Notes: a model not told the origin generated them from the sequence alone. A DNA stretch of 50,922 nt from Flavobacteriales bacterium (GCA_020435995.1 JAGQYO010000021.1:1-50922), one strand, 5' to 3'. Shown: positions 11,651 through 40,240, numbered from the stretch's first letter. Program-made: numbers and translations.

Positions 11651-14600
11651 ATGGTCAAAAAACTGTTTTTTTTCCTTATCCCTTTTTTGTTTTTGTCGCA
11701 GTGGGTCATTGCGCAAGATAGATTGCCGTTTCCTAAAGATTCGTTGGGATTCTTCGAACGGGTGGAGAAAATGATGAAATCTGAGGACAACCGAAAAAAG
11801 GAAGCCAAAGAATTTCTCGAAAAATTTGAACCGGTTTGGTTTGGTGGCTACTTTGACGATGAAATTCGCCAAAAAATATACGAGACCTGCGATAAAATGA
11901 ATGAGAAAAGGATGCTTCCTTTTCCCGAATTTCATGCCTATCTAACCTCTGTAACTGCATTCGTCACGTCGGGTCACGACATACAACAGTTTAACAATTG
12001 GCACCAGGGAGTTGAATTTCTCATTGAAGGAAGGAGCAAGAGGAAGTTTGAAGAATTTCTAATATTTAGTGAGTATTTATTCTCGGAAAACATCCTGTAC
12101 AAAGTAACAGGTACTACATGGAAAACTAGCACAGAAGAGTTTCATCTTTACTGGGAAGGAGGGCAGGATGGCTATCCAGTCGTTGACGTGCCATCGCTAG
12201 ATCTTCAATGCTTTGCCAAGCAAGATAGCGCCATAATTTTTGATACCAAAGGCAAGTACTATCCTATGGAAAAAAAATGGGTAGGGTATGGTGGTGTAGT
12301 CAACTGGCATCGTGCGGGTTTTGAGGAAAACCAAGTAGTAGCGAAAATAAAAAACTACACGGTTCAAATGAACCGGTCGCAGTATAAGGCCGACTCTGCA
12401 GAATTTAAAAATGTGTACTACTTTGGAGATGCCGAACTAATGGGAGACTTGGAGGACAAGGTGCTGGCCAATGTAGATGAAGATCGCTCCCATTACCCGC
12501 GATTTGAGTCTTATAACAACAACCTCGTCATTCGAAATATTTTTCCAAATGTTGATTACCAAGGTGGATTTATCCAAAGAGGGAGTAGTTTTATTGGGAG
12601 TGGTACGGCTGATTATCCGGCAAAGCTTTACATCAAAAGAAATGGCAGGGTATTCCTTGAGGTGTCTGCTCAAACTTTTGTGATTCGAGCCTCAAAACTC
12701 TCGGCAACCCAAGCCGAGGTGTATATGTATCTGGGTGAAGATACGATTTATCACCCGGGAGTGTCATTTAAATTTGACAACGAAACTAGGATTATGACTT
12801 TGTTTCGCGAGCAAGTGGGGAGGTCAAAAGCGCCATTTTACAATACCTATCACAAACTCGATATGCATGTCGAAATTTTGGAGTGGAACATTGATGGTAA
12901 TATGATCCATCTAGCCCCTTTGCACGGAAACACCAACCGATCCTCGGTATTCGAATCAGCCGATTATTTTACCGCGTACCGCTTTGATGAATTGTACGGA
13001 CTATCTAAAAATCATCCGCTTGTGTTGCTATCCCGATGCGCCAAACAATATGACTCCCGAAACCTAACTATTAGGGAGGTTGCCAAATGTTGGCAATTGT
13101 CTGAAACTGAGGTACGGAGAGAATTAATGGTGTTGTCGAATGTGGGTTTTGTGAAATTTGATTACAACCACGATGAGGTGCATATTGAGGAAAAAACTTT
13201 TAACTACGTACAGGCCAAGGTTAAGAAAATTGATTACGATATTCTTCAGTTGGTTTCAAACCCCAAAACAGTCAACAATGCCGATTTAAATTTAGATTCG
13301 ATGTACATGCAAATACATGGCGTAGGGGGATTTAATATGTCCGATTCGCATAGGGTACTTATTTTTCCGACCAATGGAGAAGTGCTGATGAAAAAGAACA
13401 GAAGTTTTGATTTTTCTGGGGTAGTGGTGGCTGGTCGTTTGGAGTTTTTTGGTCGTGATTTCAGTTTCGAGTACGATTCATTTTTAATTAGAATGCCCGC
13501 CATTGACTCCATGAGGATAAATGTGGAAACGCAAGACGTAGATCAATTTGGACGCTCTCAGATGAAAAGAGTAAGAACGGTAATTGAGCACATCAACGGT
13601 AAATTAGAGATTGATAAATTCAATAACAAATCAGGGAAACGGGCAATTAAAAGATGGCCGGTTTTTACCAGTAACCAAGAGTCGTATGCCTACTACGATA
13701 AAAAGGAAGTACAGGGCGGAGTTTATAAAAGAGATGATTTTTACTTTAAACTAGAGCCATTTGTATTTGATAGCATCGATAACTTTCAGAACTCCAGTAT
13801 TGGTTTTAAAGGAACATTTTCTTCAGGAGGTATATTCGAAGATTTCGAGGAAACCTTGGTGTTAAATGAAGAAAACCTTTCGCTTGGCTTTGTGCACAAA
13901 ACACCTGATGAAGGAATGCCAGTTTATGGTGGCAAGGGGAATTTTACCAACGACATTCATTTGAGCCATGATGGACTTATTGGAGGTGGGTACGTCGACT
14001 ACATTACTTCCACGGCAGAATCTCAGCAATTTTTGTTTTTACCGAAAAAGACCACTGCAATTGCTCAAAATTTTGTGATCGAAGAGCAGTTTCCTGGCCC
14101 GCCTGAATATCCAGCAGTAAATGGTAAAGGCGTGATTTGGGAATGGCACCCTTACGAGGATACGCTCATGGTAAGTTCACCTAAACATATCGAACCATTT
14201 AGCATGTACGATGGAGGCTCACGTTTCACAGGTACCTTGTATTATGATCCTGACAGTTTGGTAGGGGGACCTTATGATGGAGAAAAAGGGCGTTTCGAAT
14301 TTGACAAGGCCATTACTCAATCCAACAACATTAGGTTCAAATTTTATGAATTCTTCTCCGATACAGCTGATTTTGCTTTGAAAACGGGATCATTAGGCGA
14401 ACTCGGTTTCGACACCAAAAACATGCGTGCTCATGTAAGTTTTAAGGATCGGATCGGTCATTTTTGGGCCAATGGCGATGCTTCTGAAATTGATTTTCCA
14501 AAGAATGAGTACAAGGCCAAAATGGATCAATTTACTTGGCACATGGATGATGATTTGATTGATTTGACCGCGAAAAAACAGGCCGTTGATGGCGGGGCTG

Positions 14601-16144
14601 GAGGTAGCATAGATATTGAAGGCGCCAAACTTACATGTACCCATAAATACAGCAAGTCTGAGCAGGATAGCTTATTTTTCTATTCAAGCAAATGTCAATT
14701 TGATTTGAGAAACGAAGTGATAACGGCAGATGAAGTGAAATATATTGACGTAGCTGATGCTGAAATAGTTCCAGATAGCGGAAGGGTAGTGATTTATGAG
14801 AAAGCCAAAATGAAGCCGTTTCAAGAGGCGGTAATTATTGCGAATAAAACCAATAGGTTTCACCGAATATATGATGCACAGATAGAAATTGCCAATAAAA
14901 TTGAATACAAAGGACGAGGCAAATACGATTATAAGGACATTAACGGAATGATACAGATTGTCGATTTTAAGGAAATTTCTGTGTCTACCCAAACCCAAAC
15001 CATTGCCAACGGTCCCATAGGAAGAGACCAAGATTTTACTTTAAGTCCGAAATTCAGGTTCAATGGAGCGGTTTCCCTAATAGCGAGCAAAGAACTACTC
15101 GAATTTGCGGGGAATACCCAAATTATGCACGATTGCCAGGGGCTTGAGCGACCTTGGATTGGGTTTACAGCGCCTATCGACCCCAAAGACGTTCAAATCC
15201 CGATAGATTCCACCACGAGATCTGAAAACGGAAAGGATTTATTTGTGGGACTTTTTATGGGGAGCCTTCCTTCAAAGGTATATAGCCTGTACGGGGGCGA
15301 AACCATGAAACCAGCTGACGATGTAGTAGCCAAAGTTAACGGGGTGATGACCTACAATTACAGCCTTAAAGAATACCGTACCGGTAGTGAGAAAAAAGTT
15401 AGTATTCCCAATCTTTTGGGAGATTACATGGTACTCGACGAGGCCAATTGCGTGGTGAAGTATGAAGGAAATCATGGCTTTGGAGCTGATTTGGGAAGGG
15501 TAGAACTCAAGCCAGTGAGTAACATTACCCATGATTTAAAAACAGATTCTGTATTGCTCGAAACCTCAATGAAAGTTGATTTCTTCTTTGAAGAGAAGGG
15601 GTTGAAGATCATGGCTAAAGACTTTCAGGACAACAAGGAGTTGGAATCCATGAATTTTGATAACCGTATTTATTCCTATGCACTTAAATCTTTAGTAGGT
15701 GAAAAAGAGGGAGAAAAGCTAAAATCAGAAATTACGCTTCAAGGAAAGATGAAAAGGGTGCCAGACGAATTGGCTTCTAATTTTTACCTAGCTCATTTCA
15801 AAATGTTTTGGAATCCTCAGAAGATGGCCTTCCAGTCAATAGGTGACATCAGCTTGGCCAACTCAATGAAGGAGCAGATTAACAAACAAGTAACTGGCCA
15901 TATTGAAATTAAAAAAAGAAGAAACGGTGATATGTTCTCAGTTTACATACGACCAACTGAACAATCGTTCTATTTTTTCACCTACTCATCCGAGACTATG
16001 GAAACGGTTTCAACCAATGATAAATACAACGAAGCAATTAAGGATGCCAAAAAGAACAAACAAGAAAGAAGCAAGGACCAGGCTCGATTTAAATTTATTC
16101 CTACACAAAAAACAAAAGCAGGGCTCTTCCTGCGTCAATTATAA
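11651..16144 (+). CDS. Very large exported protein of unknown function
   Basis: A 1497-residue protein with a clear signal peptide (MVKKLFFFLIPFLFLSQWVIA, cleaved before QDR). The rest is soluble and rich in charged residues and short beta-strands; there is no T9SS sorting domain, OmpA domain or lipobox. Residues about 472-513 (IREVAKCWQLSETEVRREL onward) look like a winged helix, odd for an exported protein. The second half has repeated beta-type segments, for example around GLIGGGYVDY and NEVITADEVKYIDVADAEIV, faintly like OstA/LptA-type jellyroll strands. The ends are set by an ATG at 11651 and a TAA at 16142-16144. I do not recognise a named family; an envelope role is inferred from export and from plsY next door. 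Confidence 0.8.
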   Translation: MVKKLFFFLIPFLFLSQWVIAQDRLPFPKDSLGFFERVEKMMKSEDNRKKEAKEFLEKFEPVWFGGYFDDEIRQKIYETCDKMNEKRMLPFPEFHAYLTSVTAFVTSGHDIQQFNNWHQGVEFLIEGRSKRKFEEFLIFSEYLFSENILYKVTGTTWKTSTEEFHLYWEGGQDGYPVVDVPSLDLQCFAKQDSAIIFDTKGKYYPMEKKWVGYGGVVNWHRAGFEENQVVAKIKNYTVQMNRSQYKADSAEFKNVYYFGDAELMGDLEDKVLANVDEDRSHYPRFESYNNNLVIRNIFPNVDYQGGFIQRGSSFIGSGTADYPAKLYIKRNGRVFLEVSAQTFVIRASKLSATQAEVYMYLGEDTIYHPGVSFKFDNETRIMTLFREQVGRSKAPFYNTYHKLDMHVEILEWNIDGNMIHLAPLHGNTNRSSVFESADYFTAYRFDELYGLSKNHPLVLLSRCAKQYDSRNLTIREVAKCWQLSETEVRRELMVLSNVGFVKFDYNHDEVHIEEKTFNYVQAKVKKIDYDILQLVSNPKTVNNADLNLDSMYMQIHGVGGFNMSDSHRVLIFPTNGEVLMKKNRSFDFSGVVVAGRLEFFGRDFSFEYDSFLIRMPAIDSMRINVETQDVDQFGRSQMKRVRTVIEHINGKLEIDKFNNKSGKRAIKRWPVFTSNQESYAYYDKKEVQGGVYKRDDFYFKLEPFVFDSIDNFQNSSIGFKGTFSSGGIFEDFEETLVLNEENLSLGFVHKTPDEGMPVYGGKGNFTNDIHLSHDGLIGGGYVDYITSTAESQQFLFLPKKTTAIAQNFVIEEQFPGPPEYPAVNGKGVIWEWHPYEDTLMVSSPKHIEPFSMYDGGSRFTGTLYYDPDSLVGGPYDGEKGRFEFDKAITQSNNIRFKFYEFFSDTADFALKTGSLGELGFDTKNMRAHVSFKDRIGHFWANGDASEIDFPKNEYKAKMDQFTWHMDDDLIDLTAKKQAVDGGAGGSIDIEGAKLTCTHKYSKSEQDSLFFYSSKCQFDLRNEVITADEVKYIDVADAEIVPDSGRVVIYEKAKMKPFQEAVIIANKTNRFHRIYDAQIEIANKIEYKGRGKYDYKDINGMIQIVDFKEISVSTQTQTIANGPIGRDQDFTLSPKFRFNGAVSLIASKELLEFAGNTQIMHDCQGLERPWIGFTAPIDPKDVQIPIDSTTRSENGKDLFVGLFMGSLPSKVYSLYGGETMKPADDVVAKVNGVMTYNYSLKEYRTGSEKKVSIPNLLGDYMVLDEANCVVKYEGNHGFGADLGRVELKPVSNITHDLKTDSVLLETSMKVDFFFEEKGLKIMAKDFQDNKELESMNFDNRIYSYALKSLVGEKEGEKLKSEITLQGKMKRVPDELASNFYLAHFKMFWNPQKMAFQSIGDISLANSMKEQINKQVTGHIEIKKRRNGDMFSVYIRPTEQSFYFFTYSSETMETVSTNDKYNEAIKDAKKNKQERSKDQARFKFIPTQKTKAGLFLRQL

Positions 16145-16183: not shown

Positions 16184-16879
16184 TTGTTCTCATTTTATCA
16201 TATTCTAGGAATTGTATTAGCTTATCTCATTGGATCAATTCCAACTGCGGTATGGGTGGGCAAAATATTCTATCAAAAAGACGTTAGGGATTTTGGTAGT
16301 GGTAATGCTGGGGCAACGAATACTTTCAGGGTACTAGGCAAAAAGGCGGGAATTCCTGTTTTGTTGTTCGATGTTACAAAAGGTTCTTTAGCCGTACTTC
16401 TGGCTTATCAATTCTCCACTGCCCAACCTCAAAGTGCTACCTTTGTTAATCTGCAATTGGTATTTGGAGTGGCGGCACTGTTGGGACATATCTTTCCGAT
16501 TTATGTTGGATTTAGAGGCGGTAAAGGAATTGCTACGCTTCTTGGTATAGTGATTGCCATTCAACCAGCCGCTGCAGCATGGTGTCTTGTGGTTTTTATC
16601 ATAGTGTTTTTATCAACAAAGTATGTTTCATTAGCTTCTATGCTGGCGAGTATTTGCTATCCTCTTATCGTTAATTTGGCATACCAAACAGAGATTACTT
16701 CATTGGCAGTTTTTTCTGTTTGTATCGCACTTATGGTGCTGGGCACACATACCAAAAACATAAGGAGATTAATACAAGGAAATGAAAACAGAGCAAATTT
16801 CAATTTTGGCAAAAGCAAGGGCCACATCCAAGCGGACTCCACGGAAATTTCTGAGAAACCTATCGAAAAGCAAGAGTAG
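16184..16879 (+). CDS. plsY: Glycerol-3-phosphate acyltransferase PlsY
   Basis: A 231-residue inner-membrane enzyme that acylates glycerol 3-phosphate from acyl-phosphate, the first step of phospholipid synthesis. Signature motifs are GSIPTAVWVGK (motif 1), DFGSGNAGATNTFRVLG, and GHIFPIYVGFRGGKG (the phosphate-binding glycine loop). Five to six hydrophobic helices are seen, and a hydrophilic tail of about 30 residues extends beyond the usual end. The start is TTG at 16184; the frame has an upstream stop at 16142-16144 and no ATG before the first helix. The next gene starts three bases after its stop. Confidence 0.93.
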   Translation: MFSFYHILGIVLAYLIGSIPTAVWVGKIFYQKDVRDFGSGNAGATNTFRVLGKKAGIPVLLFDVTKGSLAVLLAYQFSTAQPQSATFVNLQLVFGVAALLGHIFPIYVGFRGGKGIATLLGIVIAIQPAAAAWCLVVFIIVFLSTKYVSLASMLASICYPLIVNLAYQTEITSLAVFSVCIALMVLGTHTKNIRRLIQGNENRANFNFGKSKGHIQADSTEISEKPIEKQE

Positions 16880-16882
16880 ATA

Positions 16883-19800
16883 ATGAATAAATCAAAGTTT
16901 ACCTCTTACGTGTTGTTTTTTCTTGTTCTATTCACAAGTGTAAAAACCCATAGCCAGGATTTTAAAAACGAAAAACAATTAACCAAAGGGGCAGATGATG
17001 CCTTTAAAGATGGTCGCTACAACGATGCTCTTCCGCTTTATTCCACTCTCATAAGCAATTACCCTAAAGACCCTAACTATAACTACCGCTATGGAGCATG
17101 CCTTATGTTCACCGGAGGTGACAAAGAAAAACCCATCAAGTTTCTACAATATGCAGTAAGTAAGCCCGAGGTCGATCCAGTGGCCAATTATTACTATGGC
17201 CTTGCGCTTCATTTAAATTATGAATTTGCTCAAGCTATCAAATACTATAAAAAGTATAAAGCTGCCGGTAAATCATCGGAAGTGAAAACGGAAGACATCG
17301 ATAATGTCATCCGTCAATGTGAGAATGGCCAAACTTTATTAAAAACAATTACCGATCTAGTTGTTTTAGATAAAAAACAATTACAAGATGAGGATTTCTA
17401 CAAGGTTTATGACTTGAGTGAATATGGAGGGCAAATTCTTGTTAAGCCCGAGGATTTTAAATCGGATTATGATAAAAAAATAGGAGCAGAGAGCATTTTT
17501 TATTTTCCAAAGGACGCCAACAAAATATTTTTCTCTGGATACTCTTCAGAAAACAAAAACGGAAAAGATATTTACTATGCAGTGCGAAATGAAGACCGAA
17601 GTTGGTCGGCACCGCTGCCCATTGGTGAGCCCATCAACACGCCCTACGATGAAGATTACCCTTTTTTACATCCTTCAGGCAACATGCTGTACTTCGCTTC
17701 TAAAGGCCACAACAGCCTTGGAGGATATGATATTTTTGTAAGTCACTACGATTCAGTGCAACATCAATGGAGCGAACCGCAAAACATGGATTTTGCCATC
17801 AACACACCAGCGGACGATTATTTATTTATTACAGATGCATCAGGCAATTCGGCTTATTTTTCTTCCACACGAGAGAGCCCTCTAGGCGAAGTAAGTGTCT
17901 ACCAAATCAACATGGAACGTATTCCATTGGATTTTGCCTTTGTGTATGGAACCTTTTCGTCTGAAAGCACCAAAAACGCAAACATAAAGGTTCAAAATGC
18001 TGAAACATCTGCCATTATAGGGGAATACACCACTGACGATGCGGGGAAGTATAAAATTAAACTACCCAATGAAGGTAAGTTCAATTTCATTGTTGACTAT
18101 GAGAACAGTACCATTACACATTCTGGAACAGTAGAATTAAAAGGACAAAATGCTTTTAAGCCACTCAAACAAGAAATGTTGGTGATGGAGCAGGGTACGG
18201 ATAATGAAAAACTCATCATTAAAAACTTAGTGGACGAGGAAGTGGAGGAAGCAACATCTCCTATTACCGTGGCGCTTTTGAAAGAAAAGGCGAAGCTAGA
18301 AGTTAACAAGGACCGTTATAAGGACAGGAAGAAAAAAGAAGAAGTTCAGCCAGTTGCTGAGGTAGCAGTTGATACGAATAAAGCTTCTCTGGAAACAGCT
18401 ACGGCTGATGTGGGAAAAGCAGCTACTGATATATCTAATGAAAAAACAATTACGGCTCCCGTAAGCACTGAAGGCCCTTCTTTGGCGATAGAGGAAAATA
18501 TTCCAGCATCAGGTGCAGGAGCTGGGGTAGGTGCAGGGGTTGGGGTTAGTTCGGCTGTTGCTGGAGCAGCTACGGGCGGTACGGTTGATGAAAATGTGGC
18601 TCACAATCCTGATTTAGAAACATCAGAAAATCAATTGGATTCTAATCCCCTTGAAATTCCAAATGAAGGGAGCACCAACGAGACAAAATTGCTGGTTGCC
18701 AAGAACAATGCGGCAGCTTTAAAAAATGATGCGACTATTTACCAATTACAAGCCGAGAGTGCTTCACAATTGGCAATAAGCAAAAGTGCGCATGCCGATC
18801 GCATGAGAATGGAAGGCAATGAAATGATGTCGAAAATTGATCAATCCCAGGAAGCTGTTGAAATGCTAGCCGAATACCGAACGGCACAGCAAAAGTTTTA
18901 TGCCGCCGATCTCCTCGACCAAGAATCTAAATCGGCAGAGGAAATAAAAATGAAATTTGCAGTTGCATCCCAATCTACAAATCAAGCTGCATCGAAGGCT
19001 GAAGAAGTTATATCTAATTTAGAAGCTAATCCAAATGCCGATTATTCTGCCGGATTAGAGAATATATCATCAATGCGAACGGCTGCACAGGAACAAGCCC
19101 AAAGCAGCGTTGATGTTGTCCAAAGTAAAGAGGAAATTACCGAAAGGCTTGAAGCTAAGCGAGTTGAGGCGAAAAATGCTCGTGCTCAGGCCATTGCCAT
19201 GGAGGAAGAGATTAAAGAAATAAAAGATGACATTTATAAAAAAGAGAAAGAATTAGAGACAGCCCGAGGAAAACGTAAAAGTGAACTCAACGAGGAGATA
19301 CAAAAAGACAAACGAGACTTAGAACAAGAATCGGCCAATGTGGTACAGGCAGACAACAAGGCCAAACAAATTGAAAAAGAGCTGGCTTCGATTCAAAGTG
19401 AATTGAACATTCTCAACGAAATTCAATACAATGCTATTAATAGCAGGAAAATGGCTGCCATAGAAGGGCCAACTACGGTTAAGTTGCCAAGCGCATCTTC
19501 AGTGAAACCAACGGTTTCGGCGTTGCAATTAGCCGAAAAATCACAAGCAGAGAATCCCGCAGCAGCTTTGAGTAATGTTCCCGCTGCGTCAGAGTCATTG
19601 GCTCAGAACACAGCAAGTTCACAAGAAAGAGAAGAGATATCAAGTTCAAATTCAACAGAGAACTCTAGCAATTCAAAGGCGACTGAAAGTCCATCTCAGG
19701 AAGAACCAGGAGTAGGTGAAGAAGAATCGGCTTCAAATGCGAGTGGATCGTCAAGTACAAGCTCAGGCATTGCAACGCCTGGAGGTGTGCCTGTGGCTGG

Positions 19801-22800
19801 AAATGTTGCTTCTGGTTCTGGAGCAGGTTCGGCAACCAAAATAGGTGCGGCTGGGGCCATTGGTGCGGCTGGCGCTGGAGCAGCAGCTGCGGCAAACTCT
19901 AGTTTAACTAAAAGCAATTCAGAAATTAATCAAACAGCAGGTTCAGTAGATGCTGCGAATACAGCAGGGGTTGCTAATCCTGATGGAGAAAATACGGCAA
20001 ATCTTTCGGGCAATAATAATATGAGCTCTCAGAGCCCAATGGCGAATGTAAGCACTGAGGTACCTGAGGTAAATGCCATCGAAACCTTGGATTTTAGAAA
20101 AGACACGTCTGAAATGACGGAAACAGAAAAAGCCTTGCTACCCACAGAAGTTGCACCGGCTAGCGGTTTTCATTCAGTAGGTAGTCTAAATCATTTGGCG
20201 GATGGTAACCAAGATGTGGCTTCCATTCAAAAATATGGATATAGCCAAGAATACTTGGATGAGTTCTTCGAAATTGCAGAGGATGAAGATGAATATCGCA
20301 AAGCGGTAAAAACTTACGTACTCAATGAAAGCTGGGTTGTAGACGTACAAAAGGAAATCCTTTATTTGGAGTCGGTGAGTGAATCCATTCCAGAAAGTAA
20401 GCAAGCGGCCTTATATAATAGGTTGTCGAGTTTGGGACAATTGAAGGATATTAAGCTTCGCAACTTAGAGCAGTCGCGCGCTCATGTTTTGACGTTAGCT
20501 GATGAGACTGGAAAAAATCCATCAGAACTCGCTAATTCATATAGAGCTGATTTGAACAAACGATTGAATTTGAGTAAAGCTGAAGGAGGCTTGGCAGAGG
20601 ACCTCGAAAGTGAAAGTTATTCATTGTCTGAATCTACTTCTAGAGAAATGTCTGATGCGGAAGTCGAAAACGCAATTGCAACGGGTGAGGAGAAGAAGCT
20701 TGCATCTGAAAATGCACAGGAATCTGCCGCGGCAGCCCCAGCAACAACTCAAGAGTCGAACATTTCTGAGGCTAGCAATGAAAATTTAGCGGAGAATAAT
20801 TCTTCTTCAGAAGCAGGTGGTAGTAAAACGGCTACCAGCACTTCAATTAAAACTCCAAGTCCGTCAGCTGCTGGTGCAGTTTCTGGTGGCGGTGCAGGTA
20901 CAGCAGCTAAAATTGGCGCAGGTGCTGGAGTAGCTGCTGCTGGTGCGGCGACTACTTCGGGTGGTTCGGGTACAGCCAACGCTATTTCCGAAAATAACGA
21001 ATCGGCCAACTCTTCTAGTGAAAACGTAGAAAATGCTACTGTAGATAATATTTCAAATAACACCGTTGCGCAGCCCGTTTTGGGCGGTGAGGGTACGAAG
21101 AAGACCACCGGCGTTGCTGCTGCAGGTGTTGGTGTTGCCGCGGCAGGCGTGTTGGGAGGGTCTGGCGCATCTCCTGAGTCAGGTAGTACGACCACAACAG
21201 AAACCAATAGGTATTTGAGCAACGGATCGCAAGCTAATATTATAGATGTAGGTGCTGGCCCAGAAGAAGATATTTATAGCCGATATGAGGCACCTGAAAA
21301 AACAATGGAAGCCGTTGTGGAGGAACATTCTACCGATGCTGAAAAAGGCGTTGAATATACGCGGGCCCAAGTTGAAGATGTTCAAGGGGATTTAAATACT
21401 GCCGAATCGGAATTGGCCAATTCGAAGGGAAAACAGAAAAAAGCCAAACAAGCTGAGGTTGAGGACATAAAACGAGAATTGGAATTAAAACAAAAACAAG
21501 AAGAATTGGCCAAATACAGAAGTGAATCTTTAGCCAGAGCAGCCGACGTTATTCTGGTGACCGAACCTGGTGAAGAACGTGAATCAACCAAGGAAGAAAA
21601 ACGCGCACAAAGGCTTCAAATGGAAGCTGATGACATGAATTATGCAGCCGACGAAAAAGCGAATTTGGAAGTAAAAGGCAAGAAGAAAAACCGTATTAAA
21701 GATGTTGAAGTCAAGCAACTTAAAACAGAGGCCGACAAAATAGAGTTGGAGGCAAGTGCTTCAAAACTATTGGCGGCGGAAATGGCAACACTTGAAGAAG
21801 AAGTATTGTTTGCTTATAAGAATACACCAGAGAAGTTACCTCCTTCAGAAAAACAAATTACGCAAGCTGATGTACAAAACATCAAAGATTCGCCAGAATT
21901 TTTGGCATACGACAAATTGCGCAAGGAAAGCGTTAATGAATATCGCCAAGCTGAAGTATTGAATTCGGAGGCCGATGAGGTGTTAGCTGAAATGCTTATT
22001 GAAAATGACAAAGTGTTGGAAATGAAACATCAGGCCAGTATTCAAATCGATTTTGAAAAAGGCCAGCGTATGATGGATTCCGCTAATGTTTATTCAGATG
22101 AGGTAAAATTGAAAAAATTGGTAGCGGATTCCATAAAACTCGAGGCAAAAAAGCACAATTCCGAAGGGAATCATTTGCGAAACCAAGCCGTGAGAAAACT
22201 TAAATCGGCTTCTCCAGATAAGGTAGCGGGATTAATAGCCTACGCCAACATTTTAGAATCTAACGGAACTTATGCGGTTGGAGGCACCGGAACTACGGTA
22301 GGAGCGGGTAGCCAAGTCTATTTGGCAGCTGGCGGAAGTCAAGCAAATCCTAGTATTCCGAAGGAAGGTTATTCGCCAGATGAATTTTCTAGGGTAGTGC
22401 AAGGAATTGATGAGTATCCAGCCGAACTTTCCGACGCGATATTCCAAATGATCGAATTCAACAAGTCGTTGTATAACAGTTCAAACCCTGTACCTGTGGA
22501 CACCAAAATGCCAAATGGTGTAGTTTATAAAGTGCAAATTGGAGCGTTTAGAAACCCACCACCTCCAGATGTATTTAAGGGCTTTGCGCCAGTACGTGGA
22601 GAAACCACTCGACCAGGCTGGATGCGATACACTGCAGGACTTTTCACGGAAATAAATCAAGCTCAATTAAAAAGGAATGAGATCCGAGCCTTGGGTTACC
22701 AAGATGCATTTATAGTGGCTTACCGAAATGGAGAACGCATTACACTAGATGAAGCCGCCGCTGCCGGAGGCTCTAGTTTGGCATCAGCGGCCACAACAGG

Positions 22801-23512
22801 TAGAAACTCAAGTCAGGAAACCACAACGGGTGGAGGCAATGCTAATCTTAATCAGTCAGGAAGACCTAGCCAAGGTGGAGGCGGAGTCGCTGAAATAAAA
22901 CAATTAGAACAAATTCAAGGATTGATGTACACGGTTCAGGTAGGCGCTTACAATGCACCCATAAATGCAAGCCAAGTATTTGATATTAGTCCGTTGGTAG
23001 AATATCAGCAAAATGGAATGTATAAATATGGGTCAGGCGTTTACAATGACATTGAACAAGCCAAAACTTCGAGAGCTAGCATCGTAGCGCTTGGATATGC
23101 CGATGCATTTGTTACTGCATTTTATAATGGCAAACGAGTTTCAATGGAGGAGGCGAGTACCATAGCTCAGCAAGGCCCAAGTGTATTTGCCAAGCCGGCA
23201 CCGTCAAATGCCAACTCAGCTCCAAGTACGGGTAGCGCTAATGTTGTGTTTAGGGTTCAAGTAGGGGCTTATGGGCAAGAAGTACCCGTAGAAGATGCCA
23301 AAGTTATCTTGAGTTTATCTAACTTAGGCTTGGATGTAGGGTCTAATGGAGAGCTAACAACCTACACCGTTGGAAAATATGATAGCTACGAAACGGCAAA
23401 TGCATTCAAGGAAAAAGTAATTAACCAAGGCTTAAAAGGAGCCTTTGTAGTAGCGATGAATAACGGACAAAAGATAGATTTGCAGCGTGCGATTCAACTT
23501 TCTAAACAATAG
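16883..23512 (+). CDS. Giant envelope protein: TPR, PD40 propeller and CRD-like N-terminus with three C-terminal SPOR-like repeats
   Basis: A 2209-residue exported protein with a signal peptide ending near KTHS. Order of parts: TPR-like helices (about 33-150), PD40/WD40-like propeller blades (about 205-345; KIFFSGYSSENKNGKDIY, NMLYFASKGHNSLGGYDIF, SAYFSSTRESPLGEVSVY), a carboxypeptidase-regulatory-like domain (about 355-430), then about 1400 residues of low-complexity Ser/Asn/Glu/Ala sequence with coiled coils and four Ala/Gly-rich stretches (near 543-567, 970-1005, 1331-1363 and 1405-1430). The C-terminus has three SPOR-like repeats (about 1876-1960, 2014-2095 and 2122-2205), each opening with YKVQIGAF, YTVQVGAY or FRVQVGAY. 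The N-terminal order matches PorE of the T9SS, but PorE ends in an OmpA domain. SPOR domains bind denuded peptidoglycan, so wall anchoring is the likely role. clpS starts three bases after its stop. Confidence 0.85.
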   Translation: MNKSKFTSYVLFFLVLFTSVKTHSQDFKNEKQLTKGADDAFKDGRYNDALPLYSTLISNYPKDPNYNYRYGACLMFTGGDKEKPIKFLQYAVSKPEVDPVANYYYGLALHLNYEFAQAIKYYKKYKAAGKSSEVKTEDIDNVIRQCENGQTLLKTITDLVVLDKKQLQDEDFYKVYDLSEYGGQILVKPEDFKSDYDKKIGAESIFYFPKDANKIFFSGYSSENKNGKDIYYAVRNEDRSWSAPLPIGEPINTPYDEDYPFLHPSGNMLYFASKGHNSLGGYDIFVSHYDSVQHQWSEPQNMDFAINTPADDYLFITDASGNSAYFSSTRESPLGEVSVYQINMERIPLDFAFVYGTFSSESTKNANIKVQNAETSAIIGEYTTDDAGKYKIKLPNEGKFNFIVDYENSTITHSGTVELKGQNAFKPLKQEMLVMEQGTDNEKLIIKNLVDEEVEEATSPITVALLKEKAKLEVNKDRYKDRKKKEEVQPVAEVAVDTNKASLETATADVGKAATDISNEKTITAPVSTEGPSLAIEENIPASGAGAGVGAGVGVSSAVAGAATGGTVDENVAHNPDLETSENQLDSNPLEIPNEGSTNETKLLVAKNNAAALKNDATIYQLQAESASQLAISKSAHADRMRMEGNEMMSKIDQSQEAVEMLAEYRTAQQKFYAADLLDQESKSAEEIKMKFAVASQSTNQAASKAEEVISNLEANPNADYSAGLENISSMRTAAQEQAQSSVDVVQSKEEITERLEAKRVEAKNARAQAIAMEEEIKEIKDDIYKKEKELETARGKRKSELNEEIQKDKRDLEQESANVVQADNKAKQIEKELASIQSELNILNEIQYNAINSRKMAAIEGPTTVKLPSASSVKPTVSALQLAEKSQAENPAAALSNVPAASESLAQNTASSQEREEISSSNSTENSSNSKATESPSQEEPGVGEEESASNASGSSSTSSGIATPGGVPVAGNVASGSGAGSATKIGAAGAIGAAGAGAAAAANSSLTKSNSEINQTAGSVDAANTAGVANPDGENTANLSGNNNMSSQSPMANVSTEVPEVNAIETLDFRKDTSEMTETEKALLPTEVAPASGFHSVGSLNHLADGNQDVASIQKYGYSQEYLDEFFEIAEDEDEYRKAVKTYVLNESWVVDVQKEILYLESVSESIPESKQAALYNRLSSLGQLKDIKLRNLEQSRAHVLTLADETGKNPSELANSYRADLNKRLNLSKAEGGLAEDLESESYSLSESTSREMSDAEVENAIATGEEKKLASENAQESAAAAPATTQESNISEASNENLAENNSSSEAGGSKTATSTSIKTPSPSAAGAVSGGGAGTAAKIGAGAGVAAAGAATTSGGSGTANAISENNESANSSSENVENATVDNISNNTVAQPVLGGEGTKKTTGVAAAGVGVAAAGVLGGSGASPESGSTTTTETNRYLSNGSQANIIDVGAGPEEDIYSRYEAPEKTMEAVVEEHSTDAEKGVEYTRAQVEDVQGDLNTAESELANSKGKQKKAKQAEVEDIKRELELKQKQEELAKYRSESLARAADVILVTEPGEERESTKEEKRAQRLQMEADDMNYAADEKANLEVKGKKKNRIKDVEVKQLKTEADKIELEASASKLLAAEMATLEEEVLFAYKNTPEKLPPSEKQITQADVQNIKDSPEFLAYDKLRKESVNEYRQAEVLNSEADEVLAEMLIENDKVLEMKHQASIQIDFEKGQRMMDSANVYSDEVKLKKLVADSIKLEAKKHNSEGNHLRNQAVRKLKSASPDKVAGLIAYANILESNGTYAVGGTGTTVGAGSQVYLAAGGSQANPSIPKEGYSPDEFSRVVQGIDEYPAELSDAIFQMIEFNKSLYNSSNPVPVDTKMPNGVVYKVQIGAFRNPPPPDVFKGFAPVRGETTRPGWMRYTAGLFTEINQAQLKRNEIRALGYQDAFIVAYRNGERITLDEAAAAGGSSLASAATTGRNSSQETTTGGGNANLNQSGRPSQGGGGVAEIKQLEQIQGLMYTVQVGAYNAPINASQVFDISPLVEYQQNGMYKYGSGVYNDIEQAKTSRASIVALGYADAFVTAFYNGKRVSMEEASTIAQQGPSVFAKPAPSNANSAPSTGSANVVFRVQVGAYGQEVPVEDAKVILSLSNLGLDVGSNGELTTYTVGKYDSYETANAFKEKVINQGLKGAFVVAMNNGQKIDLQRAIQLSKQ

Positions 23513-24122: not shown

Positions 24123-24971
24123 CTATTTAGAAATCAATTCCTCAACTCGGCCTACTTTGAACTTACTTCCATAAATGGTTTCATTCCAAATATTGCCCTT
24201 GTTATCAACGCCATAGAGGTTGTTTCCGTATTGGTAAATCCATAAATAGGCATTTACCTTCGAAGCTTGCTTTCGACCGATTTTTAGTGGGTTGCCCGCA
24301 TTATTGATCCAAATGATATTGTCTTGGGTGTCGATATAATATTCGTTTTCATCTCCGTAAAACGCACATCGATAAACCATTGTAGGCAAATTCATTGTGA
24401 TTTTTTCTTTGGTAATAGCATTGGTGTTTTGGAGTTTGGCGGCTTGTCTCCAACCTTCTCTTACAGATTCTATTCTGGATTGTACAGGTGGGTGATAGAT
24501 CGTATCGTGAATTCCATCTATTTGTTCCAACGAATTGAGTGCGCTTGCCGCTTCCTCTAATGTGGCTCCCATGTGTTGTAAAATAAAACCACTAAAATGG
24601 TCTGCCTCTAGCTCACGAGCAGGGTTGTTTCTAGAGTTGTCTTCTGTATGGCCCGCCAAATGATGGCCAATTTCATGAGCCAATACGCTGTAAGCCGACC
24701 AATCGGTTAAGGTTTCTATTCGCAGGCGCTGGATAAAGGCCGGGTTGTACCCAATATATCTTTTGTTTTGTCGGCTGTAGGCAATTACATTAGGAATGTC
24801 TTTTCTTACAATATAAAAGTCATTGGGTAATCCGCAATAATTTAAAATTTTTCCGGCAGCTTCTTTTACAATTTGTTCTGCTTCATAATCGGAATTCGGA
24901 CTCTTTTCTTTTTGAGCAAAAAGTCCAAATGTCAAGCATGTTAACCCTAAGAAAAGAATTCTTTTTTTCAT
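24123..24971 (-). CDS. Secreted HExxH zinc metalloprotease
   Basis: A 282-residue exported protein with signal peptide MKKRILFLGLTCLTFGLFA. The zinc site is His99-Glu100-x-x-His103 (LAHEIGHHLAGH) with Glu120 of the ELEAD motif as the likely third ligand, the layout of M48-like gluzincins. Residues about 195-275 carry short strands with YYIDTQDNIIWIN and NLYGVDNKGNIWN, which look like beta-propeller or binding repeats. No membrane helix is seen beyond the signal, so the site is periplasm or cell exterior. Its ATG overlaps the stop of the ABC exporter gene by 4 bases, so the two are translationally coupled. Confidence 0.82.
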   Translation of the reverse strand: MKKRILFLGLTCLTFGLFAQKEKSPNSDYEAEQIVKEAAGKILNYCGLPNDFYIVRKDIPNVIAYSRQNKRYIGYNPAFIQRLRIETLTDWSAYSVLAHEIGHHLAGHTEDNSRNNPARELEADHFSGFILQHMGATLEEAASALNSLEQIDGIHDTIYHPPVQSRIESVREGWRQAAKLQNTNAITKEKITMNLPTMVYRCAFYGDENEYYIDTQDNIIWINNAGNPLKIGRKQASKVNAYLWIYQYGNNLYGVDNKGNIWNETIYGSKFKVGRVEELISK

Positions 24972-27810: not shown

Positions 27811-30800
27811 ATGTGGGGAAGATTTGTGTTATTAGGGCTGATGCTCAGCTATTCATTTGCTGGCCTTACCCAATCAAGCGATTGGCAAACATTAATAAAA
27901 TCGCCTAACCCCAATTATTTTGACATAGTAAACGCATATAACCAAACCTATGCGGGCAAAGAATTGAAGCCGCATAACGGCCACAAACAATTTGAGAGAT
28001 GGTTGTGGAATGTAGGACCAAGGGTTCAAGCAGATGGTTCTATTCAATCAAATGCACAGATTGAAAGTGCGTCAAAATCCTATTATTCTAAAATAGCGTC
28101 ACGGTCAATGGCTGGAAATTGGACAGAAGTGGGTCCTTGGACTGAGGAAAACTATTCGAGAGGAGTAGGACGGCTCACTGGAATGGCCTTCGATCCTGTA
28201 AATGCCAAGAAATTTTATGTTGGCACCCCAGCCGGGGGTGTGTGGTATACGGAAGACGATGGGCGCACTTGGATGAAACCTGACGACAACATTGCGAATT
28301 ACGGTATTTCGTCTATTGTAGTAGATCCCACAAATGCCAGTATTGTGTATGTTGGTACTGGTGATGCGGATGCAAGCGAATCGGATGGATTAGGTGTTTG
28401 GAAAAGCTCCGATGGGGGAAAAACTTGGGTACAGAAAAACAACGGAATGGGGAACCTAACGGTGGGTAAGTTAGTGATAAACCCAAGCAACACCCAAGTA
28501 ATTCATGCGGCAACCGAAAAAGGATTGTATAAAACCGTGGATGGGGGTGAAAACTGGGTACACAAATATCCAGGATACGACATGCGAGATTTGGAGATGA
28601 AGCCAGATGATCCCAGTGTGTTATATGCAAGTAACTACACTTCAGGAATAGGGTCATTGATTTTTGTTTCGAAGGATGGAGGAGAAACATGGGTTCGCAA
28701 ATTTGTATCAGATGGTCTTTACCCCGATTGGAGATATGAATTATCGGTATGCAAAAAAAATCCCAACCTACTTATCGGAGTGGGTGGAGTGAGGATCGTA
28801 AAGTCCGAAAACTTAGGAGATACCTTTACGGTAGTTACAACCTCTGGAAATCAGTTGTTGGACAGGAATACCCGCCAAGGATGGTATAATGCCGCCTTCG
28901 AAATAGACCCGAATAACCCCAATAATATGTTTGTTGGAAATGTTCAGCTATATCACAGTACCGATGGAGGTGTCTCTTTTCTTCAAACCAGACATACCCA
29001 TGCCGATAATCATTTTCTTGCTTTTTCTCCACACACCAATCACCTGTATGCCTTGGATGATGGCGGTATTCATCGAAGTAAGGATGGTGGCGAAACATTT
29101 GAAGATTTGACCAATTTTGGCAACAGCGCAATTTATTCAGTAGCACAAAGCCCATTTAATCCCGAGCACACGCTTACCGGTTATCAAGATTGTGGTTCCA
29201 AATACTACGATGGTTACAAGTGGACCAGTACCTACGGAGCCGATGGAATGCAGCCACTTTTTGATCATTCTGACTCATCTAATTTTTATACAGCTTATCA
29301 ATACGGTCGCATAGTGCGATATTTAAAGCACATTGGTTCTGCCCAAGTTTTGCCCGAGCCTGATCAACCTTTAGATGCTGGCCAAGGAGATTATAGGGGA
29401 CCGTGGGTTACACCTTATGTATTGGATCCAAATGACAACAAAACCATCTATATGGGTTGGGATAGGGTTTGGAAGTGTAGCAACTTGCACACGGGTAAAA
29501 CCAAGAATATTGTCTGGGAAGAGGCAAGTTCAGGAGATGGCAAACAAATAGGAGGTCAGTTTATTCGTCTCAAATTTTCACAAACACATTCCAAGAGGTT
29601 GATGGCTCTTGTTCAAAATAGCAGCCGAAATAGGGTTGAGCTTGTAAAAACAGATGACATAACCGCAAGCAGTCCGATTTGGACCAAGGTTTCGGGAAGT
29701 TCACCAGTTGGAAATTCGAACGGTGATTTCGAAACTGATCCACACGATTCGCTAGCGATCTATTTGGTGGCGAGCAACCAAGTGTATGAAACCAAAGATG
29801 GTGGCTCCAACTGGACTACTATAACGGGTACTTTACCCTCGGTTCCTATCCATTGTATTGAAATAGATACGGTAACCTCTGATTTATACATTGGTACACA
29901 TGCGGGAATTTTTTATCGAGGAGCCAATGACACTGATTGGACACCTTTTAGTGGAGGTCTTTCCAAAAATGCAAGGGTACGAGATTTAGATATCTACTAC
30001 GCTAAGGATCATAAAAACAGCCTGCTGAAGGCCGCAACGTATGGAAGAGGGCTATGGGAAAGCGATTTGTATGGCAGCCATACCAGCAGCGCCATTCAAA
30101 CGAATGCTTATATCACAAGTAAAAAAGGACCATTTACGTATGAGGATGAATTTGAAGTAGAAGTTACTTTTAGGAGACACATCAACCACAGGCAAATTGA
30201 TAGCCTTAGCGCCTCAGACTTTAATATCAATAACGGAACTATTGGACATATAATAACGAAAGGCAATGTATACGTAGTGGCTGTAAAAGCTGATACTTTG
30301 GGTAAGGTAAGGATTGATTTGCCACAAGGTGCCGCAACGGATGTTGCAACCAATATGCCCACAGGAGCATCTGAGCAATGGAGTATAAATTACATTTCGA
30401 AGCCGGTTCAATTCGGCCCTTACGGCCCAGGGGGCGTGGGAGATTCAAGCACTTTGAAATTGTGGTTAAAAGCCGATCACATCATGAAAAATGACCTTGG
30501 CGATACCATAAAAAACGATGAGGCGAAAGTGACCGAGTGGCTCGATTTTTCAGGAAATGAATTTGTGGCTTCGCAAAGCACCGATTCGAGTAAACCCTAT
30601 TTTAGAACAGCTGAAAACGGCATCAACGGTTGGCCAGCAGTTGAATACAGACCACCTAACCGATATTTTATGGTTAGAGATTTTACACCAGTAGGTGAAA
30701 ATATGTCTGTTTTTGCAGTGGCCCAATCCAACACCGACACTTGGACCGGGCATTCTTGGATTGCAAATAGCCGAGAAGAAAACGGATTTTTAATTCACAA

Positions 30801-31896
30801 CAATAACAATGGAAGTACCGCAAGCGGAAATGTACTGGACGATGCAAAACGGTATTTAGGCACCCCAAGCGTAGAGGTGTTTAATGTAAAGGAGCCGCAT
30901 GTATTTTCCTTGCAGTTTAATGGAAAAATGTGGAAGAATAGCTTTTATACCGATAACCAAGTGTCGCAAGATTACCTAACACGGGATTATACTAGGGTAG
31001 GAGATGATACCATTGACATTCGATTGGGAAAAGATTTTGATGAACGCTATGGCGACGGTAAACTGGGGGAGATAATTTACTTTACCGAAGATGCCATGGA
31101 TGCCAAAAGACTAATTGTTTCTAATTATTTAGCGAGTAAATATGGCACGCCGATGCTGGAAGACGATCTCTTTGAGTACGACAACGAATTTGCCATGGAA
31201 GTGGCCGGTATAGGAAAATACAGTCAATATGATTTTCACACTAAAGCAAAAGGAACAGGCGTACTTATGTTGGAAGGAGATGAAAATCAAATGACCAACG
31301 GATCCTTTTTGCTATGGGGGCACGATAACAAAGCCATAAGTTGGGCAGCTGCTGAAACTGTTCAATCAGGATTGAAAAAATTGGAAAGAACTTGGCGTTT
31401 GGATGTTTCTGGTGGAAACATAGGGTCGATAACGCTTACCGTTAATGTGACTGACTTACCCCCTGTAACTGAAAAACTTGCAGTAATGATCGATAATTCG
31501 AAGAGTTTTGAGTTAGCAACTACCTATGATTTGACTTTGTCGAATGGCGTATATTCGGCGATCATTCCAGGAGTGGCTAAGGGAGATTATCTTACAATAG
31601 GTCAGGCAGATAAGTTTTATATTGGAGGTAGTGAAACGACGGCGGGTAGTACTTTTCGTCTTATTCCAAATCCTGCTCGTGAAGGAAAAAGCACCTTGAG
31701 TTTTTGGAGCGAAAACCCAGATCAGTTGCACATAAGTGTAGTGGACAAATTGGGTAAGGAACTTATTTCGTTAGATCGTGTTGTAGCAGGCGGAGCAAAC
31801 GCTATTGACATTGATTTAAGTGAATTTCCACATGGGCTTTATTTAATAAGGGCCTCTGGCGAGCACTCCGAAACTTGTTTAAAGTTGATTCGATAA
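27811..31896 (+). CDS. Secreted BNR/sortilin-like repeat protein with LamG-like domain and T9SS sorting domain
   Basis: A 1361-residue surface or secreted protein. A signal peptide (about 1-19) leads into a propeller region with many Asp-box/BNR motifs (TEDDGRTW, SSDGGKTW, TVDGGENW, SKDGGETW, STDGGVSF, SKDGGETF, TKDGGSNW) over about residues 100-750, as in sortilin-like and sialidase-like propellers. A segment at about 885-1100 (LKLWLKADHI, WLDFSGN, VFAVAQS) resembles a concanavalin/LamG-like domain. The C-terminal 80 residues (IPNPAREGKSTLSFW ... HGLYLIRASGEHSETCLKLIR) form a type A T9SS sorting domain. No sialidase active site was confirmed, so enzyme activity should not be assumed. A bidirectional terminator follows. 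Confidence 0.88.
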   Translation: MWGRFVLLGLMLSYSFAGLTQSSDWQTLIKSPNPNYFDIVNAYNQTYAGKELKPHNGHKQFERWLWNVGPRVQADGSIQSNAQIESASKSYYSKIASRSMAGNWTEVGPWTEENYSRGVGRLTGMAFDPVNAKKFYVGTPAGGVWYTEDDGRTWMKPDDNIANYGISSIVVDPTNASIVYVGTGDADASESDGLGVWKSSDGGKTWVQKNNGMGNLTVGKLVINPSNTQVIHAATEKGLYKTVDGGENWVHKYPGYDMRDLEMKPDDPSVLYASNYTSGIGSLIFVSKDGGETWVRKFVSDGLYPDWRYELSVCKKNPNLLIGVGGVRIVKSENLGDTFTVVTTSGNQLLDRNTRQGWYNAAFEIDPNNPNNMFVGNVQLYHSTDGGVSFLQTRHTHADNHFLAFSPHTNHLYALDDGGIHRSKDGGETFEDLTNFGNSAIYSVAQSPFNPEHTLTGYQDCGSKYYDGYKWTSTYGADGMQPLFDHSDSSNFYTAYQYGRIVRYLKHIGSAQVLPEPDQPLDAGQGDYRGPWVTPYVLDPNDNKTIYMGWDRVWKCSNLHTGKTKNIVWEEASSGDGKQIGGQFIRLKFSQTHSKRLMALVQNSSRNRVELVKTDDITASSPIWTKVSGSSPVGNSNGDFETDPHDSLAIYLVASNQVYETKDGGSNWTTITGTLPSVPIHCIEIDTVTSDLYIGTHAGIFYRGANDTDWTPFSGGLSKNARVRDLDIYYAKDHKNSLLKAATYGRGLWESDLYGSHTSSAIQTNAYITSKKGPFTYEDEFEVEVTFRRHINHRQIDSLSASDFNINNGTIGHIITKGNVYVVAVKADTLGKVRIDLPQGAATDVATNMPTGASEQWSINYISKPVQFGPYGPGGVGDSSTLKLWLKADHIMKNDLGDTIKNDEAKVTEWLDFSGNEFVASQSTDSSKPYFRTAENGINGWPAVEYRPPNRYFMVRDFTPVGENMSVFAVAQSNTDTWTGHSWIANSREENGFLIHNNNNGSTASGNVLDDAKRYLGTPSVEVFNVKEPHVFSLQFNGKMWKNSFYTDNQVSQDYLTRDYTRVGDDTIDIRLGKDFDERYGDGKLGEIIYFTEDAMDAKRLIVSNYLASKYGTPMLEDDLFEYDNEFAMEVAGIGKYSQYDFHTKAKGTGVLMLEGDENQMTNGSFLLWGHDNKAISWAAAETVQSGLKKLERTWRLDVSGGNIGSITLTVNVTDLPPVTEKLAVMIDNSKSFELATTYDLTLSNGVYSAIIPGVAKGDYLTIGQADKFYIGGSETTAGSTFRLIPNPAREGKSTLSFWSENPDQLHISVVDKLGKELISLDRVVAGGANAIDIDLSEFPHGLYLIRASGEHSETCLKLIR

Positions 31897-38515: not shown

Positions 38516-40240
38516 ATGAAAAAAATCTATTCAATACTCATGTGCGTTTCAATGTGGGGCGTTATGCAAGCTCAATCGGGTTTGGTTATTACAGAAATTA
38601 TGTACAGCCCACCAGGTGCGGGGGGTACAGGTGGCATTGAATACTTGGAAATCTACAACAATGGGTCTACCAATATCGATCTCACGGGATATACCATTAA
38701 TGGGTCATTTAATTATTCATTTCCTTCTGTATCACTGGTTTCGGGAGACTATTTTTTGCTTTCGAATGATTCGGCGGCGTTTTTTAGCACCTATGGTAAA
38801 ATGGCCTATGACTATACAGGGTTTATTTTAAATTCAGGTTCAGTTATTCGGATATGGGACAACGTAAACCAAATTGTGGATTCGGTAGAATACGAAAATT
38901 CAGCACCTTGGCCCACCATAGCAAATGGAAAAGGGCCTTCGTTACAGTTGTGTGATTACAATGGAAACAACAACGATCCAGCATCATGGGCGAGAAGTAC
39001 AAATGACTTGTCTATAGTATTGGGAAATAGAAGGGTATATGGAACACCGGGAGCAGCTAATTCTTGTCCCACTACACCAGTAGTTCAACTTGAGTATACA
39101 GCAATATCGGTGAATGAGAATGCGGGTACAGTTGATCTTGAATTGTATTTAGATAACGCTACCGGATTGGCCACTTCAGTTGATGTAAGTGCAATTTCGG
39201 GTACAGCTTCTGCCACTTCTGATATCACATTCACCTCGCCAACCACAGTTACATTCCCCGCTGGTTTTATCGGCACTCAAACGGTTTCGGTTGTCATAGT
39301 GGATGACACTTTAGATGAAGCAGACGAAACACTTGATTTTACTTTGAGTAACGTAACCAACGGTGCTACACTACTTAATAGCGCTACAAGTATGACAATC
39401 AAAAAAGACATTAATGACAACCCTGTAGATCGCAAAATGAAATTGATAGGAATAGCTGATGATGCTTCGGCAGGAGCGGCGAGGCTTATTGAGGTTGAGT
39501 TATTGGCCGACGTAACTGATATGAGTAAATACGGATTAGGATGCGCTAACAATGGCGGCGGTACTGATGGGGTAGAATTTAATTTTCCTGCAATTCCTGG
39601 TAAAAAGGGGGATCATTATTTTGTTACAAATGATTCGGCGGCATTTCATGATTTTTACGGAATTGCACCTTCATTTATTAGCCCTGGCTTTAATGGCGCA
39701 GCCTCTTACAACGGCGATGATGCGATGGAGCTTTTCGAAAATGGAAGGGTAATCGATAGATATGGTTTGCCTGATGTGGATGGAACTGGTGAGGTTTGGG
39801 AATATGTGGATGGTTGGGCACATAGACGAAACAACTCTGGGCCCGATGGCGATAATTTTGTTCCCTTAAATTGGGAATTTAGCATGAATGCCTTAGGGGG
39901 AGCCACTACCAATGGCGAGGCGACCAAACCATACCCACTTCCAAAAGCTCCAGATCCAGTGGATACAACGGATTCTACTGTTAGTGTTCACCAAATAGAG
40001 CGACCCAAGGATTTGCTCATTTACCCAAACCCGGCGAAAGAGTGGACATTGGTTAAATCAACAGGGTCGAGGTTAGACCACATTAAACTCTACAATTCAA
40101 TAGGTGTATTGGTATTGGATACGGAGGTTTTTGCGAAGGAATATAAATTGAATCTTGGAAACTTAGAAACAGGAATTTACATGATCCAATTAAGAACAGA
40201 TGACGGCCATGAACAAGTGCGGCGCATCATAAAAGAGTAG
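38516..40240 (+). CDS. Secreted lamin-tail/Calx-beta protein with T9SS sorting domain
   Basis: A 574-residue exported protein. A signal peptide ends near MQAQ. A lamin-tail domain follows (about 22-125, GLVITEIMYSPPGAGGTGG, YLEIYNNGSTNIDLTGYTI), then a Calx-beta-like domain (about 190-290, VQLEYTAISVNENAGT ... DDTLDEADETLDFTL), a second lamin-tail-like stretch (about 310-440) and a type A T9SS sorting domain (about 500-574, LIYPNPAKEW ... LETGIYMIQLRTDDG). Calx-beta repeats usually bind calcium. The function is likely surface adhesion or an extracellular scaffold. A strong terminator follows. Confidence 0.87.
   Translation: MKKIYSILMCVSMWGVMQAQSGLVITEIMYSPPGAGGTGGIEYLEIYNNGSTNIDLTGYTINGSFNYSFPSVSLVSGDYFLLSNDSAAFFSTYGKMAYDYTGFILNSGSVIRIWDNVNQIVDSVEYENSAPWPTIANGKGPSLQLCDYNGNNNDPASWARSTNDLSIVLGNRRVYGTPGAANSCPTTPVVQLEYTAISVNENAGTVDLELYLDNATGLATSVDVSAISGTASATSDITFTSPTTVTFPAGFIGTQTVSVVIVDDTLDEADETLDFTLSNVTNGATLLNSATSMTIKKDINDNPVDRKMKLIGIADDASAGAARLIEVELLADVTDMSKYGLGCANNGGGTDGVEFNFPAIPGKKGDHYFVTNDSAAFHDFYGIAPSFISPGFNGAASYNGDDAMELFENGRVIDRYGLPDVDGTGEVWEYVDGWAHRRNNSGPDGDNFVPLNWEFSMNALGGATTNGEATKPYPLPKAPDPVDTTDSTVSVHQIERPKDLLIYPNPAKEWTLVKSTGSRLDHIKLYNSIGVLVLDTEVFAKEYKLNLGNLETGIYMIQLRTDDGHEQVRRIIKE

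Follow-up and report, generated by a model that had tools for sequence, protein, structure and literature searches.

The stretch of DNA analyzed here (the window; 50,922 nucleotides, GCA_020435995.1 JAGQYO010000021.1:1-50922) derives from a Flavobacteriales bacterium and carries, at positions 16883-23512 of the plus strand, a single intact open reading frame (ORF) with an ATG start, 2209 codons and no internal stops. The encoded protein of 2209 amino acids, referred to below as the giant, consists of a signal peptide, a TPR domain, a PD40 region, a CRD-like module, a middle region of about 1360 residues, and three SPOR-like repeats at the C-terminus. This build is not peculiar to one genome; it recurs throughout the order and in many families of the class. 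The following features were assigned to the giant:

16883..16954, plus strand: signal peptide (residues 1-24), assigned from the sequence; signal peptidase I cleavage is probable before Gln25
16970..17338, plus strand: TPR domain (about residues 30-152), assigned from TPR_16, model helices and TPR matches in Foldseek
17363..17959, plus strand: PD40-type beta-propeller region (about residues 161-359), assigned from Pfam PD40 and model strands
17978..18226, plus strand: CRD-like beta domain (about residues 366-448), assigned from CarboxypepD_reg_2, model strands and CnaB-type Foldseek matches
18323..22402, plus strand: middle region (residues 481-1840), delimited by conservation and composition
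22520..22768, plus strand: SPOR-like repeat 1 (residues 1880-1962), with a proline-rich loop in place of helix 1 and invariant glycan-site Q, A, F and R
22922..23167, plus strand: SPOR-like repeat 2 (residues 2014-2095), the same variant without helix 1, with Q and R/K kept
23243..23500, plus strand: SPOR repeat 3 (residues 2121-2206), with canonical element order and binding positions mostly lost in relatives

The C-terminal SPOR-like repeats

An earlier note, made from the sequence alone, had claimed three C-terminal SPOR-like repeats, each with a V-Q-x-G-A-(F/Y) opening. All three openings were located (residues 1884-1889, 2018-2023, and 2125-2130), and Pfam, profile and fold analyses agree with the claim. 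The Pfam SPOR model matched repeat 3 (residues 2122-2189) exactly at the cut-off when the whole protein was searched, and with 42.4 bits (E 9e-11; gathering score 21) when the C-terminal part was searched alone; repeats 1 and 2 of the window protein were not detected by this model. Pfam SPOR was also matched in all 35 family members, and a profile of the family matched the SPOR domain of CwlC through repeat 1 (E 2e-4). An AlphaFold2 model of the C-terminus, calculated from the family alignment (pLDDT 82), comprises three ferredoxin/RNP-like units. Repeat 3 shows the full beta-alpha-beta-beta-alpha-beta order in this model, and helix 1 is absent from repeats 1 and 2, where a loop (proline-rich in repeat 1) takes its place. 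Structural comparison of repeat 3 (VIA-align) yielded matches to CwlC (1x60, Z 7.7), RlpA with denuded glycan (6i09, Z 6.6), FtsN (Z 5.0), and DedD (Z 4.5); these values are modest (<8) and are to be taken jointly with the sequence matches. A Foldseek search with the three-repeat model gave no match at E<=0.001 and unrelated ferredoxin-like folds in its top rows, SPOR structures being prominent only in the second structural comparison. Together, the Pfam matches in 35 of 35 members, the match between profile and CwlC, and the fold make the SPOR identity of the C-terminus secure. According to the model, repeat 3 would adopt the SPOR fold in full and repeats 1 and 2 a variant without helix 1, which would widen the known range of SPOR domains.

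In RlpA, Q270, F274, the A273 backbone and a patch of basic residues (with R285 as the FtsN counterpart) contact denuded glycan; all known SPOR proteins are stated to act in division or morphogenesis (Alcorlo et al., PMC6895207). The equivalents of RlpA Q270, A273 and F274 and of FtsN R285 in repeat 1 are Q, A, F and R in each of the 35 sequences from the order. Repeat 2 likewise has Q, Y or F, and R or K at the respective positions in 35/35 sequences. In repeat 3 the glutamine was found in only 13 of the 35, the arginine is mostly replaced by S, T, L or Y, and there is no conserved basic residue. Class-wide counts from 68 giants, were made with a cruder pattern than those for the order: of 69 matches to repeat 1, 68 have the Q and 67 the R; of 71 matches to repeat 2, 57 have the Q and 61 the R; and repeat 3 has the Q in 42 and again no conserved basic residue. 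Because the glycan-site positions are conserved in repeats 1 and 2 and mostly lost in repeat 3, the former two are the likely binders of denuded glycan, and the role of repeat 3 looks structural. Repeat 3 may even be dispensable, since in some class relatives (e.g. G113 and G177) the match extends no further than repeat 2 and stops close to an in-frame stop codon. Outside the window, SPOR repeats resembling those of the giant also occur in two further frames of its genome, of 747 and 475 amino acids (C196:64031-64642 and C163:56407-57048), so that the genome encodes several SPOR proteins.

Front module, middle region and export

The AlphaFold2 model of the front module, also calculated from the family alignment (mean pLDDT 89), arranges TPR helices (model positions 7-129), PD40-type strands (138-336) and a CRD-like beta domain (343-425) in this order, and a Foldseek search with it returned TPR, WD-type and CnaB-type structures. 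No solved structure matched the whole giant by sequence. In the domain search, PD40 (residues 248-286, E 2e-9) exceeded the Pfam cut-off and SPOR reached it; TPR_16 (residues 37-91) scored 29.7 bits, below its cut-off of 32.7, and CarboxypepD_reg_2 was weak (residues 362-422, E 0.095). The assignments of TPR and CRD, which lie below the Pfam cut-offs, therefore rest also on the model. The top NCBIfam match of the front end was the CHU_0125 model (NF053607; residues 164-423, E 5e-25, 88.1 bits, cut-off 620), and the PorE model (NF052230) matched residues 211-358 (E 4e-20, 71.6 bits, cut-off 600). The genome also encodes PorE-type paralogues, whose PD40 region is longer than that of the giant: the profile region matches them at two or three successive places. 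The model suggests PD40-type strands in this region of the giant, which may close as a propeller.

PorE (PG1058), a protein of the type IX secretion system (T9SS) of Porphyromonas gingivalis, contains TPR, a PD40 propeller, a CRD and a peptidoglycan-binding end (PMC5053529). The proposal of a PorE-like N-terminus was borne out insofar as the front end is of the PorE/CHU_0125 type and shows the TPR-PD40-CRD order. Taking this order as the hallmark of PorE proved too narrow, however, as TPR-PD40-OmpA is also the layout of CHU_0125, a Pal-like protein of 656 amino acids from Cytophaga hutchinsonii (PMC5891637). The giant itself was rejected as PorE on account of the missing lipobox, the missing OmpA domain, and a score of 71.6 bits versus 600; Pfam gave no OmpA match in it at E<=1, and its C-terminus is SPOR. 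The further claim that SPOR repeats had replaced the OmpA domain of a PorE was not upheld either. A full-length PorE-like protein is encoded on another contig of the same genome; it matches positions 5-648 of the model with 517.8 bits, short of the curated cut-off (600). In a FastTree tree, moreover, 51 giants are split from seven PorE-type paralogues on a long branch (0.61; SH support 0.984). A PorE with a swapped OmpA domain was rejected on these two grounds.

The middle region had been described as a low-complexity spacer of about 1400 residues. A long middle of about 1360 residues is indeed present, but it is not uniform: only about 546 residues (40%) are of low complexity by a simple entropy cut. 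These Ala/Gly/Ser-rich stretches alternate with helix-prone charged stretches (about residues 610-841, 1512-1647, and 1684-1725), which can be aligned between relatives. Overall, the middle is rich in Ala, Ser, Glu and Gly (Ala, Glu and Ser being commonest), with a single Trp and without Cys. Compared in blocks with the window protein, relatives show identities of 0.36-0.6 over the front module, at most 0.63 within the SPOR repeats, and 0.05-0.27 between them. Conserved ends with a drifting middle are the pattern expected of a tether. Across 68 class relatives the middle measures 897 to 1629 residues, a variation that fits a tether or scaffold and speaks against a single fixed span.

The N-terminus of the giant is of the signal peptide type, and its signal region contains no lipobox cysteine. 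Most of the signal regions of the 35 order relatives terminate at a site of the A/G-Q type, and no lipobox was seen among them by eye; a lipobox-like motif was found in one of the 68 giants from the wider class. Because the lipobox is absent, the giant is predicted not to be lipid-anchored, and would be periplasmic and soluble, in contrast to PorE.

Distribution and genomic neighborhood

A protein search of 42 sampled genomes of the order gave matches in all of them. Long orthologues were retrieved from 35 order relatives; the front module and SPOR end lie in one ORF of 1482-2405 residues in 34, the thirty-fifth being interrupted by a contig end. A scan of genome contigs with the single protein found no relatives, but the alignment of the SPOR end did find them. 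Among 295 genomes of the class, sampled evenly over families, the front-module profile matched 193 (shorter paralogues being included in some) and the SPOR-end profile 118, both at E<=1e-40. Both ends were located on the same contig in 102 of these 118 genomes, a figure joined by hand from the search tables, and the other 16 are mostly fragmented assemblies. A set of 80 named Bacteroidota loci, mostly from metagenome-assembled Flavobacteriales and unclassified Bacteroidetes, contained 68 in which a single ORF spans both ends (median length 2106 residues); three SPOR repeats are present in 66 of these class giants and four in two. Since the giant was found in only two genomes of a phylum-wide draw of 198 very complete ones, it appears to be carried by lineages of which few members have been cultured.

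A literature search combining SPOR with PorE, PD40, gliding or Bacteroidetes, in which few subscription papers were covered, revealed no description of the giant. The earlier statement that no described protein of such a build was known is to that extent unchanged, but the architecture is not unique, being widespread in order and class. An exported protein of about 2000 residues in about two fifths of the sampled class genomes thus apparently has not been described, possibly because most of the bacteria that carry it are uncultured.

The gene order in the window is TIM, PrmA, a protein of 1497 amino acids, PlsY and the giant. The two genes directly preceding that of the giant are:

11651..16144, plus strand: gene of the 1497-aa protein, which has a signal peptide and is a conserved neighbor
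16184..16879, plus strand: plsY, directly upstream of the giant; above the TIGR00023 cut-off and supported by synteny

Only three bases separate the stop codon of plsY from the ATG of the giant. The 1497-aa protein, which had no Pfam or NCBIfam match, is encoded 5' of the giant in most of the order, and plsY usually lies between the two genes. It belongs to an apparently undescribed, very widespread family present in 244 of the 295 class genomes, a wider spread than that of the giant. In most relatives whose contigs reach that far (e.g. L058:12010-14276), the giant is followed in the same direction by two genes that, judged from their sequences, encode an M48 metalloprotease lipoprotein and a flotillin of the FloA type; the adjacency of M48 is also seen in distant class members. 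This pair is not at the corresponding place in the window. There, a gene on the minus strand 3' of the giant (24123-24971) encodes an N-terminal M48-like HExxH stretch (Peptidase_M48, E 3e-8, residues 30-109), the C-terminal half of the protein lying outside this match. The window further encodes two large proteins of the T9SS cargo type, each with a C-terminal Por_Secre_tail domain (27811-31896, sortilin/BNR type, and 38516-40240, lamin-tail type). Promoter and terminator scans were not used, as promoters were no more numerous than in shuffled sequence.

Proposed function and relation to known systems

With SPOR rather than OmpA as reader of the wall, the giant is most simply read as a scaffold or tether acting where peptide-free glycan occurs, chiefly at the septum. 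Specifically, it may be a scaffold, soluble in the periplasm, by which an envelope partner is tied to peptide-free, mainly septal, peptidoglycan, a reading given a probability of about 0.5. The giant would be exported via its signal peptide to the periplasm, where repeats 1 and 2 would dock on glycan strands stripped of their peptides. As such glycan is produced by amidases mainly at the division septum, the giant would collect there. The long middle, helical and flexible, could provide reach and possibly self-association, and the TPR-PD40-CRD front would hold a partner protein, which by analogy with the proposals for CHU_0125 and PorE would most likely be on the side of the outer membrane. 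This reading is supported by the SPOR identity of the C-terminus, the glycan-site residues conserved in repeats 1 and 2, the conserved ends with a drifting middle, the missing lipobox, and the front module, the type of which is coupled in both of these proteins to a domain that binds peptidoglycan. Several observations weigh against it. The neighbors (PlsY, M48 protease, FloA, and the 1497-aa protein) are envelope-related and no division gene adjoins; the extended length of the middle is far greater than the periplasm, so that it would have to fold or pack; helix 1 is missing from the modelled repeats 1 and 2, whose binding could differ; and the giant is absent from many Bacteroidia families. 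A more far-reaching version of the septal scaffold is tentative: the family could be a widespread, undescribed one in the Bacteroidota in which one giant does the work of Tol-Pal and FtsN-type proteins, connecting the denuded wall of the septum with the outer-membrane side as the cell constricts, the two variant SPOR repeats being the binders.

A general tether between outer membrane and peptidoglycan, i.e. a Pal-like stabilizer of the envelope without septal specificity, is possible but distinctly less probable than the septal scaffold. The front module is of the same type as that of CHU_0125, whose loss harms the envelope by rendering cells hypersensitive to harmful compounds and raising vesicle output about 6-fold (PMC5891637), and the neighbors PlsY, M48 and FloA concern membrane lipid and envelope upkeep. 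The wall domain, however, is of the SPOR type with conserved denuded-glycan positions, which favors septal over bulk wall.

The earlier note had likened the front end to PorE of the T9SS, and an accessory part of the secretion or gliding machinery, i.e. a PorE variant anchoring this machinery to the wall, would agree with the match of the front module to the PorE model (E 4e-20) and with the presence of SprA and Por_Secre_tail cargo in the genome. Yet SprA_N was detected in 284 of the 295 class genomes versus 118 for the SPOR end of the giant. Being far less widespread, the giant would be dispensable for the T9SS in most of them; SprA itself is nearly universal and therefore hardly discriminates as a marker. 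Moreover, the genome encodes the separate PorE-like protein, and no T9SS machinery genes were found among the scanned neighbors. Membership of the T9SS was rejected on phylogenetic profile and neighbors, and an accessory role is improbable. Least likely is a guide for a wall enzyme, in which the front end would recruit a peptidoglycan synthase or hydrolase (or the neighboring M48 protease) to the septum: the M48 lipoprotein gene lies 3' of the giant in many relatives, and the Escherichia coli SPOR proteins DamX and DedD offer a precedent by stimulating the class A PBPs PBP1A/1B (PMC7642682), but the giant has no catalytic domain, a direct link is missing, and the M48-type gene of the window is on the opposite strand and looks different.

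The septal scaffold thus remains the preferred reading, and the giant is a concrete candidate for the link between septal wall and remaining envelope in its carriers. Its function is suggested by its domains, and the family is broad and apparently undescribed. Since a TPR-PD40 front with a peptidoglycan-binding end is already known from PorE and CHU_0125, the giant is a new combination of known parts and not a new category. Like PorE, it has TPR, PD40 and CRD in this order, followed by an end of the peptidoglycan-binding type. Unlike PorE, an outer-membrane lipoprotein of about 670 amino acids with an OmpA_C end, it has 2209 amino acids, no lipobox, a shorter PD40 region, the 1360-residue middle, and SPOR repeats. 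With CHU_0125 it shares TPR and PD40 ahead of a domain of the peptidoglycan-binding type, but CHU_0125 ends in OmpA_C, whereas the giant lacks OmpA and scores 88.1 bits against the NF053607 cut-off of 620. With FtsN, DamX, DedD, RlpA and CwlC it shares the SPOR fold and the denuded-glycan positions; in these proteins the SPOR domain resides on a small protein or an enzyme, whereas the giant carries three repeats behind a TPR-PD40-CRD front.

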